64,000 nt of DNA, taken from assembly GCA_012838235.1 (NCBI GenBank), contig DUPQ01000069.1, forward strand, positions 1-64,000, given 5' to 3'. The notes beneath the pieces are model-generated. The model was not told the DNA's origin. It did no database searches and saw nothing but the letters and a program-made list of their open reading frames with translations. Origin of the DNA: Clostridiaceae bacterium. GTDB lineage: Bacteria; Bacillota; Clostridia; DUPQ01. How positions within the stretch are numbered: the stretch's first letter is position 1; the number at the start of each line of letters is the position of its first letter. Shown here piece by piece: positions 9,203 through 25,303 of this stretch. The translations under genes and the position numbers were made by a program.

Positions 9203-9231
9203 TTGAAAGACATATATGCAGGTTATAAACT
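9203..9231 (+). promoter_or_regulatory. Promoter for the GH2 gene
   Basis: TTGAAA (9203-9208) and TAAACT (9226-9231) have a 17-bp spacer, placed 33 bp before the start codon. It lies in the intergenic region shared with the divergent AraC gene. Confidence 0.6.
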
Positions 9232-9263
9232 ATATATATAACTGTTCAAAGGAGAATAATGAT

Positions 9264-10967
9264 ATGGCTGAAATACCTCGTAAAGAACATCCGAGACCGC
9301 AGATGTACAGGAAATCCTGGATCAATCTAAACGGTAAATGGCAGTTTGAAATTGATCACGGAAGAAGCGGAAAAGAGCGGGAATTGTATAAAGATGCAAA
9401 ACTCTCGTCCTCTATAATTGTTCCCTTCTGCCCCGAAAGCGCACTCTCCGGAGTAAATAACAAAGACTTTATGGAGTGCGTGTGGTACAAACGGACGGTC
9501 AGGATAAATAAGAGTTGGCTGGAGAACGGCAGAAGAACCTTGCTTCACATAGACGCATGCGATTATCTTACCGAAGTATGGATTAATGCCCAATCGGTCG
9601 GAACTCATATGGGCGGATATTCTTCATTCAGTTTTGACATAACAGAGCAACTTAAAGAAGGTGAAAACACCATAACAATAAGTGCTACCGATCTTTTAAG
9701 AACCATGGAACAACCTGCAGGAAAGCAATCCGTAGGGTATTTTTCCAGAGGCTGCCACTATACAAGAACTACCGGAATATGGCAGACGGTATGGCTGGAA
9801 AACCTTCCGTCTTCCAGTATAGCGTCTTTCAAATGTATACCGGACATAAACACATCCAGTATATATTTTGATATATTGTGCAGAAATGCTAACGGTAAGA
9901 AAATAAAGGCTACCGCATATTTTGACAATAAAAAGATGGCTTCCTGCACTGCGATAATAGAAGGAAAGCATGCAAAGTTCAATATGAAACTGAAAGAGCT
10001 TCATCTTTGGTGCTGTGAGACCCCCAATTTATATACCCTCAAACTGGAACTGGATGAAGATAAAGTGGACAGTTACTTCGGAATGAGAAGTATATATTAT
10101 CATGATAACAAGTTTTATCTGAACGGTAAGGTTGTATTTCAGAGACTGATACTGGACCAGGGTTTCTATCCCGACGGCATATACACCGCACCTACCGATC
10201 AAGAACTGAAAAATGACATAATAAGGTCACAGGCTATGGGATTCAACGGTGCAAGGCTGCATGAAAAAGTATTTGAACCGAGATTTTTATATCACTGTGA
10301 TGTTCTGGGATATCTGGTGTGGGAAGAGCATGCCAACTGGGGATTGGATGTATCCAAAGACAAGGCATGGGAGCGGTTTGTTCCCGAATGGCTGGAGATA
10401 ATGGAAAGAGACTTCAATCATCCTTCAATTATCGGATGGTGTCCCTTCAACGAAACACAGAAAGATCAGAACCCCGATCTTATTAAATTCGTCGCTGACA
10501 TGACCAGAGCAACAGACCCTACCAGACCGGTTATCGACACTTCGGGATGGACACATGTAAGCGGAGCATCCGACATAAGGGATAAGCACGACTATGACCA
10601 GAATCCGGTTACATTCAAAGAGCGATATGCCGAGCTGGACAAGCAATGTAAGAATTATGACGGCTATGTTGACGATAATTGCGCTCCCGTATTCATATCG
10701 GAATACGGCGGAATATGGTGGTCGGAAACAGATATGACCGGCTGGGGATACGGGGAACGTCCCAAGAGCCTTGATGAGGTTATCGAGCGATACGGAGCAT
10801 TGACCGAAGTGCTGTTAAATAATCCCAATATCGGGGCATTCTGTTACACGCAACTGACCGATGTCGAGCAGGAACAGAACGGACTTTACACATATGACAG
10901 AAAACCCAAGATGGACCCTGCTGTTATACGGGCGATTAATACAAAGAAAGCTGCAGTGGAAGATTAG
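9264..10967 (+). CDS. Glycoside hydrolase family 2 protein (beta-galactosidase/beta-glucuronidase type)
   Basis: The 567-residue enzyme has the GH2 order: a jelly-roll sugar-binding domain (RKSWINLNGKWQF, about 12-180), an Ig-like domain (about 180-270) and a TIM barrel. The catalytic acid/base is the Glu of CPFNETQ and the nucleophile is the Glu of FISEYGG. No signal peptide is seen, so it acts in the cytoplasm on imported oligosaccharides. The start at 9264 follows AAAGGAGA; an in-frame ATG at 9216 lacks a ribosome site. The protein is shorter than LacZ and nearer in size to glucuronidases. The linkage cleaved is not determinable. The nearby GPH symporter and sugar kinase support sugar catabolism. 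Confidence 0.9.
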   Translation: MAEIPRKEHPRPQMYRKSWINLNGKWQFEIDHGRSGKERELYKDAKLSSSIIVPFCPESALSGVNNKDFMECVWYKRTVRINKSWLENGRRTLLHIDACDYLTEVWINAQSVGTHMGGYSSFSFDITEQLKEGENTITISATDLLRTMEQPAGKQSVGYFSRGCHYTRTTGIWQTVWLENLPSSSIASFKCIPDINTSSIYFDILCRNANGKKIKATAYFDNKKMASCTAIIEGKHAKFNMKLKELHLWCCETPNLYTLKLELDEDKVDSYFGMRSIYYHDNKFYLNGKVVFQRLILDQGFYPDGIYTAPTDQELKNDIIRSQAMGFNGARLHEKVFEPRFLYHCDVLGYLVWEEHANWGLDVSKDKAWERFVPEWLEIMERDFNHPSIIGWCPFNETQKDQNPDLIKFVADMTRATDPTRPVIDTSGWTHVSGASDIRDKHDYDQNPVTFKERYAELDKQCKNYDGYVDDNCAPVFISEYGGIWWSETDMTGWGYGERPKSLDEVIERYGALTEVLLNNPNIGAFCYTQLTDVEQEQNGLYTYDRKPKMDPAVIRAINTKKAAVED

Positions 10968-11149: not shown

Positions 11150-11371
11150 ATGGCCTTTTCAATCAGATTAACTGAAGAAGAAAGAGCATTGGCGGAAAGC
11201 TATGCAAAACTACATTCGTACACATTGGCGGAGGCTTTCAAAAGAGCTTTGTTTGAGAAAATTGAAGACCAATATGATATTGCGATTTATGATGCTGCGT
11301 ACAAAGAATATGAGGACAGCGGAAAACAAAGCCGCCCTATTAAAGAGTTTTGGAAAGAGCTTCAGACATGA
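11150..11371 (+). CDS. RelB-like antitoxin (ribbon-helix-helix, DUF6290-type)
   Basis: The 73-residue protein starts MAFSIRLTEEERALAESYAK, a ribbon-helix-helix beta strand followed by helix. It continues with an acidic, toxin-neutralising tail (AYKEYEDSGKQSRPIKEFW). A strong ribosome site, GGAGGTG, precedes the ATG. Its stop codon overlaps the toxin start (ATGA), the usual sign of a coupled type II toxin-antitoxin pair. The RHH domain would bind the promoter palindrome. The pair interrupts the carbohydrate locus and is probably horizontally acquired. Confidence 0.88.
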   Translation: MAFSIRLTEEERALAESYAKLHSYTLAEAFKRALFEKIEDQYDIAIYDAAYKEYEDSGKQSRPIKEFWKELQT

Positions 11372-11637
11372 CATATTCGATTGAAGTGACATCAAGATTT
11401 GAAAGAGAATTTAAAAAACTCGACCGCTATACAAAATTGATGATTAATGCCTGGATTGAAAAAAACCTTTTAGACTGCGAAAATCTCGGAACATGCAAAA
11501 AAACTCTGATTGAAAACAGAAAAGGTCTATGGAGATGCCGAATCGGCGATTATCGTTTGATTTGTCATATAGAGGATAAAAAATTTATTATCTTCGCATT
11601 GAACATCGGACATCGCAGTGAAGTTTATAAAAGCTGA
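11368..11637 (+). CDS. RelE/ParE-family toxin
   Basis: The 89-residue protein has the RelE/ParE pattern: SIEVTSRFEREFKKLD near the N-terminus, a central basic LGTCKKTLIENRKGLWRCRIGDYRLIC, and a C-terminal NIGHRSEVYK. In RelE relatives these basic and His/Tyr residues drive ribosome-dependent mRNA cleavage. The ATG at 11368 overlaps the antitoxin stop, and translation from there is more likely than from the in-frame ATG at 11350, which lies inside the antitoxin gene. Confidence 0.9.
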   Translation: MTYSIEVTSRFEREFKKLDRYTKLMINAWIEKNLLDCENLGTCKKTLIENRKGLWRCRIGDYRLICHIEDKKFIIFALNIGHRSEVYKS

Positions 11638-11756
11638 TATCTCTTTTTCATGTTTTTCTAAAACAGTTTCTTACCCAAAATCCCGATAACTTATGATTTG
11701 ATGTTGCTTAAAATTGCCCATCGGCTATAATGAGTAAAAGGGCAAGGAGAGATGTA

Positions 11757-13418
11757 ATGAAATATACATTGGATCTGTACAAAGCAAGTTTAAAATCATA
11801 TGAAATTTATCTGGAAAGACTTATAAGAAATCAGATGACACAGGCATCCGACTGGAGAAAAGACGGTGTCATTATAGTGGATGAGGGCTTTGTGCCCACC
11901 CATATCGCAGGGGTTTTATATGCTCCCGGATTGTTGTATTTCAATGAGGACAGCAAATACTATAAATCAAAAGAAGCAATGGAGTTCGCCTTTTCCGTTC
12001 TGGAGTTCTTTGAAAGAAACTTAAGTCCCGAAGGACTTATGGATTTCTATATGTGCAATTTCCAGTCGGCACCGGATACATCCTTCTCCATACAGCCTCT
12101 GGTCGCTCTTTACAATATCATTAAAGATAAAAAAACCGATGATACGGGAGAACTGTTCAAGAAAAGACTTTACGACTTCATAGTAAAAATGGCGGACGGA
12201 GTCTTTGAGGGAGGATTCCATACACCCAACCACAGATGGGTTGTAACATCGGCTTTAGCCATGGTCATGAACATGACAGGAGATAAAAAATATCTTAAGA
12301 GAATAAATGAATATCTGGCCGAAGGTATCGATTGCGATGAGGAAGGAGAATACTCTGAGCGCTCTTCGGGCGGATATAATTTTGTCAATAATGAAGCACT
12401 TTTAATAATTGCGGAACAACTTGATAAACCGGAACTGCTGGAATTCGTGCGCAGGAATCTTATGATGATGACCTACTACATACATACCGACTTTCTCATA
12501 TTCACGCAGAATTCCACCCGCCAGGATAAAGGAAAAGAAAACATATATCTGGACAAATATCTCTACCAGTATCTTAAAGCGGGTTATCTGCTTAAGGATG
12601 AGCAGCTGCTCGGTATAGCAAAAGCCATACAGAATGAACTTTTCTCCAAAGGAAGAAGATACCCTATAGGATTGGACACCATGATGGCGGAACCGGAGGT
12701 ATTGATAATACCGGAACATATAAAACCGTTTGAAATACAGCCGTATGTAAAGCATTTCAAAAAATCCAAGATATTAAAAATTCATCACAACGGTATGACT
12801 TTATCGGTTATTGAAGACAAAGAAACCTTTTTGTATCTCAAATATAAGAGTTTCGACATGTTTATTCAGGGAGGAATACTCTTTTTCAATGAGCGACATA
12901 TTAAAGTTAAGAATATCCGTCCCGTAGAAAACGGCTTTGCAATGGACTACCACGGACAAGGCATATATTATCATCCGTTCGGGCAATATCAGGGAACTGC
13001 AAATTTCTGGGAAATGGACAAATCCAAGAGAGTAACATCCGAATTGCTTACGGTGGATGCCGTTATTGAAGTTACCTTGACGGAAAAAGGGTTCAAAATA
13101 TATCTGAAAGCTTGGGGAATAGAAAAGGTATCCGTAAGATTGGATATTGCTATTAATAACAATGCTTTTATCATGGGTGACGGATATACAATAAAGGCAA
13201 ATGCGGGCGGAATGTTGTTGCCCGAGTCGGGTGCTGTCAGGGCGGAATTCGGCACCTGCGGAGTGAAAATAGGACCTGTAAGAAACGATACATACATCAC
13301 CCGTGGATTGTTCGGTTCGGAACCTCTGGATACCGATAAATACCATATATTCTTTAACTATCTTACTCCGTTCGAGCACAGTTTTACCATAGAGCCGGTA
13401 ACTGAATTTGAGGATTGA
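11757..13418 (+). CDS. Uncharacterised carbohydrate-locus protein, probable (alpha/alpha) toroid plus beta-sandwich
   Basis: This 553-residue protein has no signal peptide. The first 330 residues are helix-rich, with a conserved-looking GGFHTPNHRWVVTSALA segment and an ERSSGGYNFVNN turn, as in alpha/alpha-toroid lyases or hydrolases. The remainder is beta-rich. The order resembles heparinase- or alginate-lyase-like enzymes, but no diagnostic family motif is visible, so no reaction is assigned. The start at 11757 follows AAGGAGAG; a frame extension to 11730 lacks a ribosome site. Neighbouring GH2, ROK, GPH and amidohydrolase genes suggest a role in oligosaccharide or uronide breakdown. Confidence 0.7.
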   Translation: MKYTLDLYKASLKSYEIYLERLIRNQMTQASDWRKDGVIIVDEGFVPTHIAGVLYAPGLLYFNEDSKYYKSKEAMEFAFSVLEFFERNLSPEGLMDFYMCNFQSAPDTSFSIQPLVALYNIIKDKKTDDTGELFKKRLYDFIVKMADGVFEGGFHTPNHRWVVTSALAMVMNMTGDKKYLKRINEYLAEGIDCDEEGEYSERSSGGYNFVNNEALLIIAEQLDKPELLEFVRRNLMMMTYYIHTDFLIFTQNSTRQDKGKENIYLDKYLYQYLKAGYLLKDEQLLGIAKAIQNELFSKGRRYPIGLDTMMAEPEVLIIPEHIKPFEIQPYVKHFKKSKILKIHHNGMTLSVIEDKETFLYLKYKSFDMFIQGGILFFNERHIKVKNIRPVENGFAMDYHGQGIYYHPFGQYQGTANFWEMDKSKRVTSELLTVDAVIEVTLTEKGFKIYLKAWGIEKVSVRLDIAINNNAFIMGDGYTIKANAGGMLLPESGAVRAEFGTCGVKIGPVRNDTYITRGLFGSEPLDTDKYHIFFNYLTPFEHSFTIEPVTEFED

Positions 13419-13480: not shown

Positions 13481-14380
13481 CTATTCGTTGTTTATAATCA
13501 GATAATGTTGTAAAGCCCCTATCATTGAAGCATCATTTTCATATACCGCGCATTCAATGGTCGTTTTTTCATAATAAAATTGATCCGTCATCATGCTTAA
13601 ATACTTTTTAAAGCCCGCTACAAGACTGTCTCCCCTTGCACTTATACCCCCGCCGATTATAATCTTCTGCGGAGAGAATGCGTATATAAGGTTGGCCAAA
13701 GCCGATGCCATATCCTTGTAAAACACATCTATTATCCGGTAAGCGGTGTCGTTACCGGCATCAAACAAATCAAACAGTTCTCTTCCGTTGGATACCAAAA
13801 GCTTTTGTTCTTTTGCCGACTTGACCAACGCACTTATGGAACATAACGATTCCCAGTTTTTGCCGTCTCTTAAGTGCATAAGTCCGAACTCTCCCGCGGA
13901 ATAACCGTATCCTTCATACAGTTTGTCGGAAATTACAATTCCGCCGCCTATTCCGGTCCCTATGGCTACAACAATGAAATCCTTTCCCTTATTAAACTGT
14001 ATTTGCGACAAAGCAAGACAATTCACATCGTTACAGGCGGTGGCATTCAGATTGAATTTTTGCTTGATTATTTCACGAAAATCGGTACCCGTGTATCCGA
14101 CCATTACATCATCGGCATACAATACACGCCCGTTGCCGCTGTCCACCGCTCCTGTTGTGGCAATAGCCACTCCTTCAAGCGGATATTGCTTCGACATATC
14201 CGCTATTATGCCCATTACACGATTCAGAAGTTCCTCTCCTCCCAACAATATTCTCGACGGTATTTTATTTTTGTGTACAAAATTAAATGACTCATCCAGA
14301 ACTCCGTACTTGATGGAGCTTCCTCCGATATCTATGGCAAGATACAACCTTCCTGAATCGGTATTATCATAGGCACTCAT
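13481..14380 (-). CDS. ROK-family sugar kinase-like protein without the zinc motif
   Basis: The 299-residue protein has the ROK ATP-binding start (LAIDIGGSSIKYGVL), the catalytic ND pair (CNDVNCLAL), GTGIGGG, and the C-terminal IIIGGGISARGD. The usual GEIGH histidine is replaced (GEFGLM) and the CxCGxxGC zinc loop is missing. The protein belongs to a subgroup whose substrate cannot be guessed; glucose, N-acetylmannosamine and allose are all possible in the family. It overlaps the preceding transporter gene by 4 bp and is the last gene of a three-gene catabolic operon. Confidence 0.88.
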   Translation of the reverse strand: MSAYDNTDSGRLYLAIDIGGSSIKYGVLDESFNFVHKNKIPSRILLGGEELLNRVMGIIADMSKQYPLEGVAIATTGAVDSGNGRVLYADDVMVGYTGTDFREIIKQKFNLNATACNDVNCLALSQIQFNKGKDFIVVAIGTGIGGGIVISDKLYEGYGYSAGEFGLMHLRDGKNWESLCSISALVKSAKEQKLLVSNGRELFDLFDAGNDTAYRIIDVFYKDMASALANLIYAFSPQKIIIGGGISARGDSLVAGFKKYLSMMTDQFYYEKTTIECAVYENDASMIGALQHYLIINNE

Positions 14381-15750
14381 TTTTCCTTCCCCATCTCATT
14401 ATATTCTTTGGGCATGTAATTGGCCGCTATTATAGCTATTACACATGCTGCTATTACTATATAAGGCATTAAATGAGCTCCGAAAACGGGATTGTCGGGC
14501 AGTGTAATTTCTTTAACATTGAGCCACACAACAGATGTGGATAATGCTCCCACAAGAGCCGTACATAATCCCTGCATTGCAAAATACATGGACGGATGAC
14601 TCTTTCCTGTAGCCTTCAGTTCATCGGCTGCCGCTTGTGCGGGTATCGCATAAGGTGCGGAGAAAAATGCACCTAAACCGTAACTGCCTATTGCGCCTCC
14701 AGTTGCTCCTATCGCCAACCTTATATATTCATTGGGTATCCACTTGATATATGCTATTGAGAACATGAGCATGGCAACGGCAAACGAACCCATAGCCGTC
14801 TGGAATGCAAATCGGAAACCTTTCTTTTTCATTACCTTCCTGTAGAAATACAACATTAAAGGAACAGGGGCGAATGCTGCGGAATTTATAATGGCAATCT
14901 GCCAGCTGTTAAGCCCCATCGGTCCCGATGCCAGCACATTCTGTCCCGCCAAGAACATCTGAAGCCCGAAGAAAAAGATACCGAAAACCAATAACCACAT
15001 AAGAAAACCTTTATTCATAATTGTCAGTTTTATGCTCTCTAAGAAAGGCACTTCCTCTTCCACAGTTTCTCCCGCTTCCACGCGTTTTGCAACATCCTCG
15101 GGTAGCGTCGATTGTTCTTTGAGCAGGAAAAACGGTATTATCATGGTAAGAAGCAGGGGTGACAGTATAAGGGCAATATGCCTGATATTCAACCCGCCTA
15201 CCATTAAAGGTATAACGGCATAACCTATGGAATACTGAATGGTATCAAAAAACGCTTTCCAGGAAGAAAGATAATGACGGTCGCTGTCATTCTCGGTTAC
15301 TTCCGAATAAGTACCGTAATATGTTACCAGTGTCAAAGTATAGGAAGTAAAGAAAAAGATAAGCAGCACACCGAACCATATCGTATTTAACAAACTGTGT
15401 TCCGCTATTTCCAGCGGGAAACAGAATAATATGTATGTGATAATCATAGGTATGTACCCTATCAGTATAGCCGGACGCCTTTTACCCCATCTAGTCTTTA
15501 ACGTGTCGGTCAGTGATGCAAGCGGTACATCCGCTACACCGTCAACAATCTTGGCTATCAATACAAACACACTGAACAAAGCGGTCATAACAATGGTTTT
15601 ATTGGCATATGTCCAGTTTTCAATGTTCTTCAAAAAACCTGCAGTACTCAAGCCGTCTATAAGATAGGCGGTAATCATGAGGTTTATAAGCCCGGGTCCG
15701 AAACCGGACAGAGCATACAGAGGCAGGTAGTTTCTTTTGATTTTTTGCAT
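14377..15750 (-). CDS. GPH-type sugar:cation symporter (MFS)
   Basis: The 457-residue membrane protein has about 12 hydrophobic segments. It carries the glycoside-pentoside-hexuronide family motif region near the N-terminus (KIVDGVADVPLASLTDTLKTRWGKRRP). GPH members such as MelB, GusB and XynB import glycosides or uronides with H+ or Na+. The location between the amidohydrolase and ROK genes, facing a GH2 gene, makes it the likely importer of the GH2 substrate. AGGAGGACATT precedes the ATG. Confidence 0.9.
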   Translation of the reverse strand: MQKIKRNYLPLYALSGFGPGLINLMITAYLIDGLSTAGFLKNIENWTYANKTIVMTALFSVFVLIAKIVDGVADVPLASLTDTLKTRWGKRRPAILIGYIPMIITYILFCFPLEIAEHSLLNTIWFGVLLIFFFTSYTLTLVTYYGTYSEVTENDSDRHYLSSWKAFFDTIQYSIGYAVIPLMVGGLNIRHIALILSPLLLTMIIPFFLLKEQSTLPEDVAKRVEAGETVEEEVPFLESIKLTIMNKGFLMWLLVFGIFFFGLQMFLAGQNVLASGPMGLNSWQIAIINSAAFAPVPLMLYFYRKVMKKKGFRFAFQTAMGSFAVAMLMFSIAYIKWIPNEYIRLAIGATGGAIGSYGLGAFFSAPYAIPAQAAADELKATGKSHPSMYFAMQGLCTALVGALSTSVVWLNVKEITLPDNPVFGAHLMPYIVIAACVIAIIAANYMPKEYNEMGKEK

Positions 15751-15759
15751 AATGTCCTC

Positions 15760-16890
15760 CTAAATCTTTTCCAATTGCTTATAAGCTTTCTTCAGTGATG
15801 CAAAATCGTACTTAATGCCGGATTTATCTCCGATTTTCATTAAACAAAGTTTGATTATGGTTTTTCTGACTTCCGCTAACACTTTATTTATATTAATCTC
15901 ATACGGAGCATGTCCTATGAAATCTAAAAAATTCTGTGAAAATATCTTTTTCTGTATTTTTTTACTTAAACCCAGAGGGCTCAATGTGAAATCGTTATCA
16001 TGCATGAGATAGGAGTAATGCTCGTCAATAACAAAATCCGCTTTGGAAGAAATATACCTTTTAACAAGATCCGCTCTTCTCTTCTCCTCTTCTTTAGAAG
16101 CACTCTTTCCGTCCACCACACCTTTTGTACCTATATCGGTTCCGTACATAATCCTGTCCTGATATTTTTCGAAAAAGGCTGTTGCTTTTTCTTTATTTTC
16201 GGAGAAATTGATATACATCTCTATTCCCGGGGTAAGATCAACATATACATTTTGATACTTATCCAATATTTCCGATAATCTGTCCAGTTGTTTTGACAGG
16301 AAAAAGAAGTGCGCAAATATTATCTTCAGATCAGGATGTTTTTTTAATACATTCAACACTTCCTCATATTGTTGTTCATTATTGACATATGTCTCATCAT
16401 ATAGCCAGTTCTGCTCCATTGCCCATTTGGGTATTTTATCTTTATCCCAGAACTCTTCAGGGTCATTGACATGCCATAAAATAGGGAAAGCGGTGTCTTC
16501 CATAAACGCAAAATACGGATCCCACACCGGAGCATCAAAGGAAGGTACATTGAGCATCTTTCTTATCTGAGGTTTGCCCTCTATCATCTTTATACCGTCA
16601 CATCCTGCTTCTCTCATCCGCAATGCATATTTTGCCATTGCTTTTCCCAAAGTTTTCTTTTTGGTGAAATAGTTGGAAGCATCCAGACTTGCAAACACAT
16701 ATATCCTGTCGGGTAATTTGTGTTTAAGAATAAGGGCGTCCTGTACCGCTGACAATTTCGCTCTGTCGGGCACAACAACAATATTGGCTATGTCGGTATC
16801 GCAATAGTCCAGTATTCTTATCATCTCATCAACAGGTATGTTGGATGAATAGTGTATGTGGCAGTCAACAATTTTCATATCATTGAACAT
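15760..16890 (-). CDS. Amidohydrolase-family (PF04909-like) TIM-barrel hydrolase
   Basis: The 376-residue protein opens KIVDCHIHY, giving the HxH metal pair. Later metal or catalytic positions are the His of LWHVND, the His of IIFAHFF and the Asp of MYGTDIGT. Members of this group act as decarboxylases, lactonases or hydrolases on small ring compounds and sugar acids. It is the first gene of the operon with the symporter and ROK kinase, so a sugar-acid or lactone step is plausible. The C-terminal 40 residues are helical and atypical. The specific reaction is unknown. Confidence 0.8.
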   Translation of the reverse strand: MFNDMKIVDCHIHYSSNIPVDEMIRILDYCDTDIANIVVVPDRAKLSAVQDALILKHKLPDRIYVFASLDASNYFTKKKTLGKAMAKYALRMREAGCDGIKMIEGKPQIRKMLNVPSFDAPVWDPYFAFMEDTAFPILWHVNDPEEFWDKDKIPKWAMEQNWLYDETYVNNEQQYEEVLNVLKKHPDLKIIFAHFFFLSKQLDRLSEILDKYQNVYVDLTPGIEMYINFSENKEKATAFFEKYQDRIMYGTDIGTKGVVDGKSASKEEEKRRADLVKRYISSKADFVIDEHYSYLMHDNDFTLSPLGLSKKIQKKIFSQNFLDFIGHAPYEININKVLAEVRKTIIKLCLMKIGDKSGIKYDFASLKKAYKQLEKI

Positions 16891-17522: not shown

Positions 17523-20096
17523 TTACTTTATCCTCACACCGTAAATCTTTTCCGCATATGTTCCTACTACCAGTATATCGTTATATATAGCGGGAGTAGC
17601 TTCTATTGTTATGTACTGTCTGCCTAAACTCAATGTTATTTGGTCAATCTGTTTTCCCGTCAATGCATCAAGCAGCGATATCTTACCGTTGTGCTCGCAG
17701 TATGCGATATATGCTTTGTTATCCTCTGTATACACGGCTACCGGCGAACTCCAGCTGTAAGGCGATTTGTATATCCAGACTATCTGTCCGGTTAATTTGT
17801 CTATGGCTATAAGCCTTCCCGCCCATATGGAATCTTCCAGCGTCTTACTTATATTGAAAATAACCAGATCTTTTATCGGACCTTTACCTATAACGGGTGA
17901 AGCAAGTGCTCCGCCGTTCACCACATCCACATAAAACGCCGGTACATCCACCTGCCACAGCAGTTCACCGGTAAGAGCATTGAACTTACGGATATTGCTG
18001 TTATCATCCCGCCCCCTTATATCCACTTCGTTTGCGGTGTATAAAAATACACCTTCTTCGGTAACATCAATGGCAACCGATGCGTCGGTATCGTCTCCCG
18101 TGTTGTATGCCCACAATATCTTAAGACTTTCCAGATCCAGACATATCAGCATACCGGCATTATCGGTAAAGTACATATATTTTTCATATATGGACGGAGA
18201 GCTTTCTATTCCGTACGAGTATGCCCCTTCCGATACATATTTATACCTTGTTATCTCCGGTTTTATAGAAATTGTTTTTGCCCCTTTATCAAATACGGTA
18301 TTTAACTTAACTATATAAATAATCCCGTTCTCTCCGCACTGATAATATGTGTCGTTTTTGATATCCAATATACCCGAAGAATCAAATGCTCCCCAACCGG
18401 GTCTCGGAGCAAATGTATCATATCCTTTAATCTCATGAAGAAGCTTGTTGTCTATCAGACTGAATATCCTGTAACCGAATGGTCTGTATCTGTCTTCTCC
18501 TTCATTTGTGGTTGCGGCCTCTAACCCTTGTCCGACATATAAAAGGGGATATCCTCTGGGGTCTACGGATAATGTACCTTTTACGGGTACACCTATGTAG
18601 ATATAGTTTCTGGTGGGTTCTCCGGTATACAGGTCAAGGAAATATATGTTGCCGTCCAGCGTTGCATATATGACTTCAATAAGTTCGTTCATATTCTTGA
18701 ACTTCTCATAAACATTCATAATGCTCAGCATTTCTCTATCCCATTTAACTATGCAAGGCTGGCCTGTCCAGCCAACTCCCGGCCATATTGAGCCGGCACC
18801 GGTCATTCCGCCTATCTCATAGCTCCATATCTCTTCAAGTTTTTGCTCTTTTATGCTTATATTACCGAAAAAGCCCGAGTCCCTGTAATTATTGCCTCTG
18901 TATGTGGTTATACCCCTGTCCGAATATTCATCGGAATGAGGAAAGAATATGTCATCTTCGGATATATATACATTTGACGCGGTACCGTCAGGATACATGA
19001 TAACGGACTGTAATTTTTCAGCAGTCTGTTTCGCTTTTTCATCAATATTGTCCAAAATAAGAGCATGACTGTATTTGCTTTTTTCCACAATAACCGCATT
19101 TTTCGCAAAAAGCGTATTTATTATCCCGCATATATCCTTAAAGGTACTTTCCGCTTCGGACAAGTTTGCATCTTTTGCGCTCATTGAAACAATGAATATA
19201 TTTTTTGCATATACCATGGCGGAACCGTTCATACTGAAAATGTCTTTGTCCTTCGTAACGAAGGAAGCCGCAGACACACCGGTAAGTATGTCGGAAGACA
19301 GATATTCCCGTATTGCGGAATAACCGTCAACATGTGAGTCAATTTTATCTTTAAACAATTTAAAACCGACCGTCATATCGTCAGGTGAATAGTAAGACTC
19401 GGAACCGGACATACCTCTGTCGGACATATATTTTTCAATGTTGTTTTTACCGTAAACTCTTAAAAGCATGTTAAGAGCGGCTCTGTCGTCATTCTTCAAT
19501 ACATACTCACATAATTTTTGTATAGTATATTTATCGGAATAGCTGCCTTTTGCCACCACATCGGAATTGCTGTCATAGTCAGCTTCAGTATATTCAACCG
19601 ATGTATCCAAAGGTATTTTCTGTCTGATTTCCGGCTCATATGCATACATAACAACCGCCAGTTTATATGCAGCAGTATTATCAAATTTCCGGTTTGCGGA
19701 AATATTGAAGGATTTATCGGCAGTAATATCATAAACGGATAATGCATAAACACCGGTCTTTGAGGAAAGAAGGTATTCAAAATATCCCAAAAGATTTTCA
19801 AACTTATCAATTTTTATATGATTATCCGGTAACGGCTGTTCAATTACGGGCGTTCCGGTCGGTGTCGGAGAGGGCGTGTCGGTCCCGGTCTCGCCAGGAG
19901 AAGGCGATGCAACTATCGTAGGTTCTTCCGTCCGTATCAGTGAGGGGGTAGGGGTAATTTCTCCGTCAAACCAGCCCTTCATATATGCGTAAATAAAAGA
20001 TATGGCTATACACAGGATTACGGCGATTGCTACCAATACCGCTATATTTCTTTTATCCTTTTTTGTATTCTCAGTACTTTTCTTCTTATTTGCCAT
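17523..20096 (-). CDS. Membrane-anchored pseudo-beta-lactamase and PQQ-type beta-propeller protein
   Basis: This 857-residue protein has a transmembrane segment (about 18-38), a Pro/Thr/Ser-rich linker (about 48-92), a class A beta-lactamase-like domain (about 105-345) and a C-terminal beta-propeller with PQQ/BamB-like blades (about 400-857). In the lactamase domain the position of the catalytic SxxK reads AAYK (in NTAAYKLAV), and the SDN position reads NDD, so the active serine is lost. The protein probably binds rather than cleaves cell-wall or antibiotic-like ligands on the outer surface. The propeller may be a scaffold. The following membrane protein gene starts at the next base. Confidence 0.75.
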   Translation of the reverse strand: MANKKKSTENTKKDKRNIAVLVAIAVILCIAISFIYAYMKGWFDGEITPTPSLIRTEEPTIVASPSPGETGTDTPSPTPTGTPVIEQPLPDNHIKIDKFENLLGYFEYLLSSKTGVYALSVYDITADKSFNISANRKFDNTAAYKLAVVMYAYEPEIRQKIPLDTSVEYTEADYDSNSDVVAKGSYSDKYTIQKLCEYVLKNDDRAALNMLLRVYGKNNIEKYMSDRGMSGSESYYSPDDMTVGFKLFKDKIDSHVDGYSAIREYLSSDILTGVSAASFVTKDKDIFSMNGSAMVYAKNIFIVSMSAKDANLSEAESTFKDICGIINTLFAKNAVIVEKSKYSHALILDNIDEKAKQTAEKLQSVIMYPDGTASNVYISEDDIFFPHSDEYSDRGITTYRGNNYRDSGFFGNISIKEQKLEEIWSYEIGGMTGAGSIWPGVGWTGQPCIVKWDREMLSIMNVYEKFKNMNELIEVIYATLDGNIYFLDLYTGEPTRNYIYIGVPVKGTLSVDPRGYPLLYVGQGLEAATTNEGEDRYRPFGYRIFSLIDNKLLHEIKGYDTFAPRPGWGAFDSSGILDIKNDTYYQCGENGIIYIVKLNTVFDKGAKTISIKPEITRYKYVSEGAYSYGIESSPSIYEKYMYFTDNAGMLICLDLESLKILWAYNTGDDTDASVAIDVTEEGVFLYTANEVDIRGRDDNSNIRKFNALTGELLWQVDVPAFYVDVVNGGALASPVIGKGPIKDLVIFNISKTLEDSIWAGRLIAIDKLTGQIVWIYKSPYSWSSPVAVYTEDNKAYIAYCEHNGKISLLDALTGKQIDQITLSLGRQYITIEATPAIYNDILVVGTYAEKIYGVRIK

Positions 20097-24157: not shown

Positions 24158-25303
24158 TTATTTATACTTATGAAGAAGCTCCATCATCAGCATGAAGTTT
24201 TTTATCGGAGTAGTGGGCGAAACAAGATTGGAACATCCCACTATTGCACCGTTCAACTCCTTTGCAGCCAAAACGGCTTCCATAACTTCCGCTCTGACAT
24301 CGTCTCGGCTTTTACTGTCTAAAGTTGCTGCCGATATTCCCCCGATTACCGTTATATGTGGATATTTTGTCCTTACCGAGCGGATGTCCATTCCGCAGGA
24401 GCAGTCGGCTTCGTAATGTCCGTCGATACCGCTATGTATATAAAAATCATCCGCCACATCCCAAAAGTAACCGTCCGAACCGAAGACATGATAAAGTCCG
24501 TATTCGTGACACTTATCCGATATCCTTCGTAAGCGGGGAACCATAAGTGTCTTAAATATTTCATTTGAATAGAACAATCCTCTGTTACCCGCACAGTCTC
24601 CCCCTCCGTATGCTATACGTGCACCTATGGAAGCTATCAGAGGTATATTCATCAGTGCTCTTTGTGTCAAAGCTTCGAGATATCTCTCCACCAAATCAAG
24701 TCTTACCGCAACCGCTTCAAACCATACTTCTCTTGTATTGGGTATCAGAAGAGCCAGACCTCCGGTATAGGTAGCTCTTTGGTTGTTGAAGTAACTCATG
24801 GTATCTATATAATCGCTGTGCATGGAAATATCGGGAACATATTTTTTACTATATTGCTCCGTATTGATTACTTCCTCTTCCAAAAGATCGGGATCGTCCA
24901 CATCTTTCTTAGTATCTTCCATGCATGCAAAAAGTTCATATTCGTCAAAATACTTCATTATCCAGTGAGTGCCGTCTTCTCTTTCATAATAGAACGTAAC
25001 ATCATCCAGCATCTTTGTCGGTTTGTAGCGGTATCGCCAGTAGGAAGGACGTACATAGTCAAAATCCATCGCTTCATTCCAGTCAAAAGCATCCTGCCTG
25101 GATTTTTCCGCAAATTCCTTGTGAGCTTGTTCTCCGCGGAATCTTGCAAGGCTTTCCCTGTATTGCTGAATACCGCCGCCTACATACATGGTTCTTCCCA
25201 TTACCTGTGACGCGACTCTTGACGAAACGGAACCGCAATAGATAGGCACATGATCGCTTTTTTCCTTAGAAAATGCCGCCATTACCCTTTCATACGAATT
25301 CAT
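24158..25303 (-). CDS. Uroporphyrinogen decarboxylase (URO-D) superfamily protein
   Basis: The 381-residue protein starts MNSYERVMAAFSKEKSDHVPIY, the usual opening of URO-D-like enzymes. It carries a GGDCAGNRGLFYS loop and HYEADCSCGMDI and GGISAATLDS near the C-terminus. True HemE residues are not evident. This branch includes cobalamin- or corrinoid-linked methyltransferase-like proteins and many uncharacterised anaerobe proteins. It stands alone, convergent with the EAL gene, with 13 bp between the two. A role in heme synthesis is unlikely without neighbouring hem genes. Confidence 0.8.
   Translation of the reverse strand: MNSYERVMAAFSKEKSDHVPIYCGSVSSRVASQVMGRTMYVGGGIQQYRESLARFRGEQAHKEFAEKSRQDAFDWNEAMDFDYVRPSYWRYRYKPTKMLDDVTFYYEREDGTHWIMKYFDEYELFACMEDTKKDVDDPDLLEEEVINTEQYSKKYVPDISMHSDYIDTMSYFNNQRATYTGGLALLIPNTREVWFEAVAVRLDLVERYLEALTQRALMNIPLIASIGARIAYGGGDCAGNRGLFYSNEIFKTLMVPRLRRISDKCHEYGLYHVFGSDGYFWDVADDFYIHSGIDGHYEADCSCGMDIRSVRTKYPHITVIGGISAATLDSKSRDDVRAEVMEAVLAAKELNGAIVGCSNLVSPTTPIKNFMLMMELLHKYK

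Follow-up and report, generated by a model that had tools for sequence, protein, structure and literature searches.

An unclassified bacterial protein family, apparently a distant relative of uronic-acid-cutting toroid lyases

What does a bacterial protein do when it is laid out like a polysaccharide lyase but fits no recognised family? The question arises from one gene in a 64,000-nucleotide stretch (the window) of contig DUPQ01000069.1 from a Clostridiaceae bacterium. The ORF at 11757-13418 on the plus strand is a genuine gene of 553 codons and a stop, delimited by translation, relatives and the family alignment, and the opposite strand holds several stops in the same register. We placed its start at the ATG at 11757 rather than at the mechanical ORF start, 11730, because a Shine-Dalgarno-like AAGGAG (11744..11749, plus strand) lies 7 bases before that ATG and the family alignment begins there. 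Translation confirmed the 553 residues given in a preliminary description of the locus and the sequence it had singled out, GGFHTPNHRWVV, at residues 152-163.

By sequence comparison, the protein belongs to a family that has no Pfam or NCBIfam model. The window protein gave no useful match in Pfam, NCBIfam or the PDB with phmmer. Across 29 aligned members (alignment A1: 26 of 45 ORF matches plus P0001, L036 and L037), scanned at E ≤10, the best Pfam match was Med6 (E 0.018) and the best NCBIfam match had E 0.029, which bears out the earlier view that the protein fits no recognised family. The sole lyase-related Pfam match was Lyase_8_N, in 3 of the 29 (best E 0.025). Lyase_8 and PF07940 were absent from the matches of any member at E ≤10, a scan in which HMMER filters drop most weak matches. 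No PDB chain was clearly related in single-sequence or profile searches, the best profile match being a weak one to PL8 (E 0.007) over only 79 positions (profile positions 6-84). "Unclassified" is meant relative to Pfam and NCBIfam, the two general libraries compared.

Of 391 sampled genomes in the class, 24 (about 6%) have members, as do 14 of 60 related genomes, the host's own included in both counts. Genomes of the host's own taxonomic family (f1) hold up to five matching places each; the host genome has four besides the window gene, at two sites. Two relatives, L006 (95% identity) and L007 (76%), align across residues 1-553. L006 is apparently contig G327:C168 (5498 bases), assigned to the bin of a genome from a different family for which 6% contamination is given, and is perhaps, even probably, misbinned. 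Plasmid records yielded three relatives, L036 and L037 from Subdoligranulum and L038 from Streptomyces. L036 (42% identity) groups with the window clade at support 100/100 and is the nearest relative found outside the genus. IMG/VR yielded no relative, and none of 24 pattern matches there was confirmed. On the window's own contig, a tandem pair of members adjoins a ROK kinase (L069, G000:C41:83217-86458); similar pairs stand in L085, L086 and L100, with ROK beside the pair in L085 and L100.

Residues invariant in A1 are Asp96, Gly153, Thr156, Pro157, Asn158, His159, Arg160, Trp161, Glu189 and Asp192, followed by Gly197, Glu201, Ser203, Tyr207, Asn234, Thr250, Ser253, Arg255 and Asp257, and the window protein keeps every one. 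One stretch among these, GGFHTPNHRW (residues 152-161; 12210..12239, plus strand), carries Asn158 and His159, which conservation and profile alignment mark as the putative carboxylate-neutralising pair. A second, GEYSERSSGGYN (residues 197-208; 12345..12380, plus strand), carries Tyr207, the catalytic candidate from profile alignment. PNHRW occurs in 38 members of a wider 40-row set, drawn from 43 cluster members by omitting L007 and L084 (repeats) and L038 (uncertain start); L037 is likewise left out. Two rows of a 50-row tree set, L070:2535-4139 and L101:7729-9345, lack NHRW. These degenerate paralogues each adjoin another family member and are possible inactive partner subunits.

Profile comparison relates the family to toroid lyases, and it looks like a distant relative of those that cut uronic acids. 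The 40-member profile scored 59.8 (Prob 89) against heparinase II/III-type proteins, 60.1 (Prob 88) against PL8 (50.2 in the reverse direction) and 46.3 against c6, a heparinase-like neighbour family. GH127 reached 31.1 and GH88 30.1, the latter 44.8 (Prob 55) in reverse. The remaining 15 of 20 profiles scored at most 21.5: none of 14 other neighbourhood profiles exceeded 20.3, and a three-sequence heparinase-type set reached 21.5, which is no match. For a null, gap-trimmed lyase profiles were shuffled in 10-column blocks, 60 times each. None of the 60 shuffles reached the observed score for the heparinase-type profile (43, Prob 41; shuffle mean 18, maximum 31) or for PL8 (51, Prob 73; mean 21, maximum 34). 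Trimming itself cut the Prob of the heparinase-type match from 89 to 41. The resemblance to polysaccharide lyases proposed earlier thus stands at profile scores near 60, and the Asn/Tyr motif of toroid lyases makes it more specific.

That motif falls into register with heparinase-type lyases. In the heparinase-type profile, Asn158 and Tyr207 land on the motif's Asn and Tyr, and Gly197, Glu201 and Tyr207 align with Gly254, Glu258 and Tyr263 of that profile, so that the neutralising Asn and the G-x3-E-...-Tyr motif of toroid lyases are both present in the family. The reference profile has the motif Asn, Gly and Glu in 19 of 19 sequences, and Tyr in 12 and Trp in 7 at the last position. An hhalign comparison of A1 with A3, a set of 18 proteins of heparinase II/III type, gave Prob 62 and P 7.5e-5, pairing TPNHRW with LGNHYF and GEYSERSSGGY with GMHFELSP-MY. 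We rejected membership of PL8: it supplies the best, weak PDB profile match and three of the six top Foldseek rows for the full model, but its profile alignment does not fall into catalytic register and the Lyase_8_N matches are weak.

The best reading of these comparisons is a new family inside a known superfamily, the lyases that combine an (alpha/alpha) toroid with a beta-sheet domain. Among its closest known parallels, heparinase II/III-type lyases, whose fold is common to PL12, PL15, PL17, PL21, PL33, PL35, PL39 and PL40, resemble it in the predicted order of a helical and then a beta domain, and in the Asn followed by Gly-x3-Glu-...-Tyr. Unlike them, the family has no listed PF07940 match and no beta-domain HxHxD; the 553-residue length of the window protein and the lack of a signal peptide by a crude test are further differences. 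PL17 shares the Asn-His pair, and its Alg17C is the top structural row for residues 1-320, but there is no sequence match to Alg17C and other toroids score nearly as well. The GH88/GH105 unsaturated uronyl hydrolases, genomic partners in several lineages, are another protein, with profile scores of 30 forward and 44.8 in reverse against about 60 for the lyases.

The structure models are of low confidence. Both were built from three sequences only (window, L006 and L007), and their poor quality follows from this three-row input. In the full-length model (mean pLDDT 44, pTM 0.40), helices run to about residue 310 and strands begin at about 315, which bears out, at the level of predicted secondary structure, the helical N half and beta-rich C half described previously. 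The order of elements is right for the toroid plus antiparallel beta-sheet lyase fold, at low model confidence. Residues 1-310 (11757..12686, plus strand) would form the helical toroid domain, on low-confidence models and structural comparison, and residues 315-553 (12699..13415, plus strand) the beta-rich half without HxHxD, on model and alignment.

The preliminary description suggested searching structure databases with a predicted model. For the full model, Foldseek ranked lyases of PL8, PL12 and PL17 as its first six chains, at E values between 0.0016 and 0.017; query TM-scores ran from 0.13 to 0.25 and rmsd from 18 to 22. Nothing reached E 0.001 with either model. VIA-align of the full model returned no lyase among its best 50 rows, a result that does not exclude lyases. 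The model of residues 1-320 alone, also poor, had pLDDT 57 and pTM 0.60. Foldseek gave no clear match to them: a designed protein was best (E 0.05), designed repeat proteins and others came ahead, and the first lyase stood at rank 8 (E 0.29). In VIA-align the top row was Alg17C of PL17 (Z 10.7, rmsd 6.0, 245 aligned); GH76 (10.6), PL8 and 2-epimerase toroids scored nearly the same, and a Z under 13 may reflect no more than a common helical arrangement. Because Alg17C is nearly level with other toroids, the comparison supports a predicted (alpha/alpha) toroid for residues 1-320, not a particular family.

The active site would work without the usual histidine. The HxHxD His motif of the beta domain is absent from the family, and no column of its beta-half alignment has a conserved His; in the heparinase-type reference profile, His373 is found in 19 of 19 sequences and His375 in 18 of 19. 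Because the family has no such conserved His, we propose Tyr207 as acid/base and Tyr404 of the beta half as a second candidate base (Tyr in 38 of 38 letters of its column, with a gap in four A1 rows). The 49 residues from Asn158 to Tyr207 are slightly fewer than in the published catalytic pairs of lyases with this fold, 53-59 in PL8, PL12, PL17, PL35 and PL39 and 63 in PL23 (PMC12088678). In PL17 a His stands directly beside the neutralising Asn (PMC4765187), and with D-GlcA in the +1 site, Tyr acts as both acid and base in PL12, PL21 and PL33 (PMC11848413).

We consider it fairly probable that the protein works in the cytoplasm as a beta-eliminating lyase on small 4-O-substituted uronides. 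The family, its motifs, its profile relation and its gene neighbourhoods are observed; its fold, residue roles, reaction, substrate and cellular location are predictions. A crude test found a signal peptide in 0 of 40 family members; the protein is thus probably cytoplasmic and would act on imported small substrates rather than take the first step of polymer breakdown. Of the earlier suggestion that it may start breakdown of an uncommon uronide or glycan, the uronide part is favoured by the context of relatives, and the starting role is probably not correct. An imported small glycoside with a 4-O-substituted uronic acid would bind with its carboxylate neutralised by Asn158 and His159; Tyr207 would serve as acid, perhaps also as base, and beta-elimination would break the O4 bond, yielding an unsaturated uronide together with a neutral sugar. 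For relatives, the unsaturated uronide would go to a GH88/105 enzyme encoded next door for hydrolysis, and the freed sugar to an adjacent ROK kinase for phosphorylation. For the window protein the substrate is probably a small glucuronide.

Gene neighbourhoods of relatives repeatedly pair the family with GH88/105, enzymes that usually serve unsaturated products. GH88/105 genes (≥69 bits) occur in 10 of the 24 genomes with members, which together hold 12 members; 8 of the 12 lie within 12.5 kb of one against 0.39 expected, and 6 within 5 kb against 0.18 expected. The count drops 7 partial rows out of 47 and GH88 matches under 69 bits, and uses rounded genome sizes. The linked members spread over several tree lineages, although three of the genomes come from one genus and three from another and are non-independent. 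ROK neighbours occur in 12 of 38 clustered loci, the window included (among the 38, L084 nearly repeats the window, and L007 and L071 are one stretch). L036, from a plasmid record, lies directly behind a GH88 gene, on a stretch that also holds a GH2 gene, URO-D genes, a ROK kinase and a heparinase-like gene (Pfam E 0.0022, under its cut-off).

Heparinase-like proteins recur around the family as well. Cluster c6, whose profile matches heparinase II/III type at Prob 90, is found at six loci, each with a Cys/Met-type PLP enzyme in addition to a member of the family; one c6 protein, L072:6975-9149, has no Pfam match at E 0.01. Two other proteins near family members, L007:3438-5135 (566 residues) and L036:5881-7677 (599 residues), have no listed Pfam match.

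In order, the window locus holds an AraC-type regulator (minus strand), a GH2 enzyme (9216..10967, plus strand; closest solved sequence the beta-glucuronidase 7xyr, E 1e-135), overlapping DUF6290 and ParE-type toxin genes (11150-11637, plus strand) that are probably a type II toxin-antitoxin pair, the lyase-like gene, and three minus-strand genes assigned by family match: a ROK sugar kinase (13481..14380), a GPH-type sugar symporter (MFS_2; 14377..15750) and an amidohydrolase (Amidohydro_2; 15760..16890; no PDB match at E 0.001). These last three run convergent to the lyase-like gene and do not form one operon with it. The GH2, GPH, amidohydrolase and ROK locus pointed out earlier is kept in part in L084, a 95% relative that nearly repeats the window and retains the lyase-like gene, ROK, GPH and amidohydrolase. 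It is gone at L007, where a GH116 gene adjoins instead, which weakens a tight role in a GH2 locus. Elsewhere in the window, 17523-20096 (minus strand) encodes an 857-residue protein with a beta-lactamase-like domain and PQQ/BamB-type propeller repeats, and 24158-25303 (minus strand) a URO-D family protein whose BLAST cluster has further members close to family genes at six other loci.

What weighs most heavily against the window copy being a plain lyase, without being decisive, is the missing GH88/105 of its own lineage. Among the 10 f1 genomes searched, host included, not one GH88/105 match exceeds the cut-off by itself; one genome (G001) has a single partial match that does so only together with its neighbours in frame. 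The host's one heparinase II/III-type gene above cut-off softens this absence, and a KDPG-type aldolase is found in 9 of the 10. The same absence would suit a toroid glycoside hydrolase that works on glucuronides together with GH2, its invariant acids (for example Glu189, Asp192, Glu201 and Asp257) being catalytic. GH76 and 2-epimerase toroids scoring near lyases with the N-domain model and the reverse GH88 score of 44.8 also fit such a hydrolase. We hold it to be unlikely, since the forward scores for GH88 (30) and GH127 (31) are half those for lyases and PNHRW and Tyr are in register with the lyase motif.

Two further readings are less probable again. The GH88-linked relatives might be lyases while the window's own lineage acquired a non-lyase role, as up to five matching places in f1 genomes without a GH88/105 above cut-off alone, and the two paralogues that lost NHRW, could suggest; we give this little credence, because the window protein retains all A1-invariant residues and its nearest relative outside the genus, L036, is GH88-linked. 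The repeated linkage to GH88/105, with its usual role on unsaturated products, makes a uronosyl C5-epimerase such as DS-epi1 similarly improbable. In favour of this reading, DS-epi1 itself stands at Foldseek rank 9 (E 0.098) with the full model. DS-epi1 also has the fold and active-site Tyr in common with these lyases (PMC11848413). A beta-eliminating lyase remains our preferred reading.

Some relatives stand among genes for inositol use. A member adjoins iolC, iolD, iolB, iolE and iolG in five genomes (G036, G185, G225, G244 and G427) from three genera, and these members fall in two separate clades of the tree. Of 33 genomes examined, 9 have iolD, and a member is near it in 5 of the 9 by raw count; it is away from a member in G090, G321, G431 and G518, and was not found in the 10 f1 genomes at E 1e-100. 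One strand of L088 reads GH88, ROK, lyase-like gene, iolC, iolD, iolB, iolE and iolG, with IolC, IolD, IolE and IolG above the NCBIfam cut-offs and IolB under its own; L168 reads GH88, GH38, lyase-like gene, iolC, iolD, iolB, iolG and iolE. No GH88 lies within 500 kb of the iol-linked copy of G244. In L088, the GH88-type gene exceeds the cut-off for the NCBIfam model "beta-galactosidase BglB".

This gene content prompts a tentative and rather doubtful proposal: the inositol-linked subgroup may act as a lyase on the inositol glycan carried by GIPC sphingolipids of plants, the window protein being a relative that acts on another uronide. The cabbage GIPC head group is described as Man-alpha1,4-GlcA-alpha1,2-myo-inositol, and its Man as resisting removal by several alpha-mannosidases (PMC12498067). 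Beta-elimination at GlcA O4 of this glycan would release Man and unsaturated GlcA-inositol; GH88/105 would split the latter, ROK would phosphorylate the sugar and IolGEDBC would consume the inositol, the whole route being cytoplasmic. In the titles and abstract openings searched we found no report of such a bacterial route for the GIPC glycan; a fungal phospholipase C acting on GIPCs has been described (PMC11496612).

If the inositol-linked proposal is true, bacteria would have a route to degrade the glycan head group of a major membrane lipid of plants. If the lyase reading is true, the family would be one with an active site that does without the customary beta-domain histidine, and proteins unmatched in Pfam and NCBIfam, present in 24 of 391 sampled genomes of the class (about 6%, host included), would gain a testable function.
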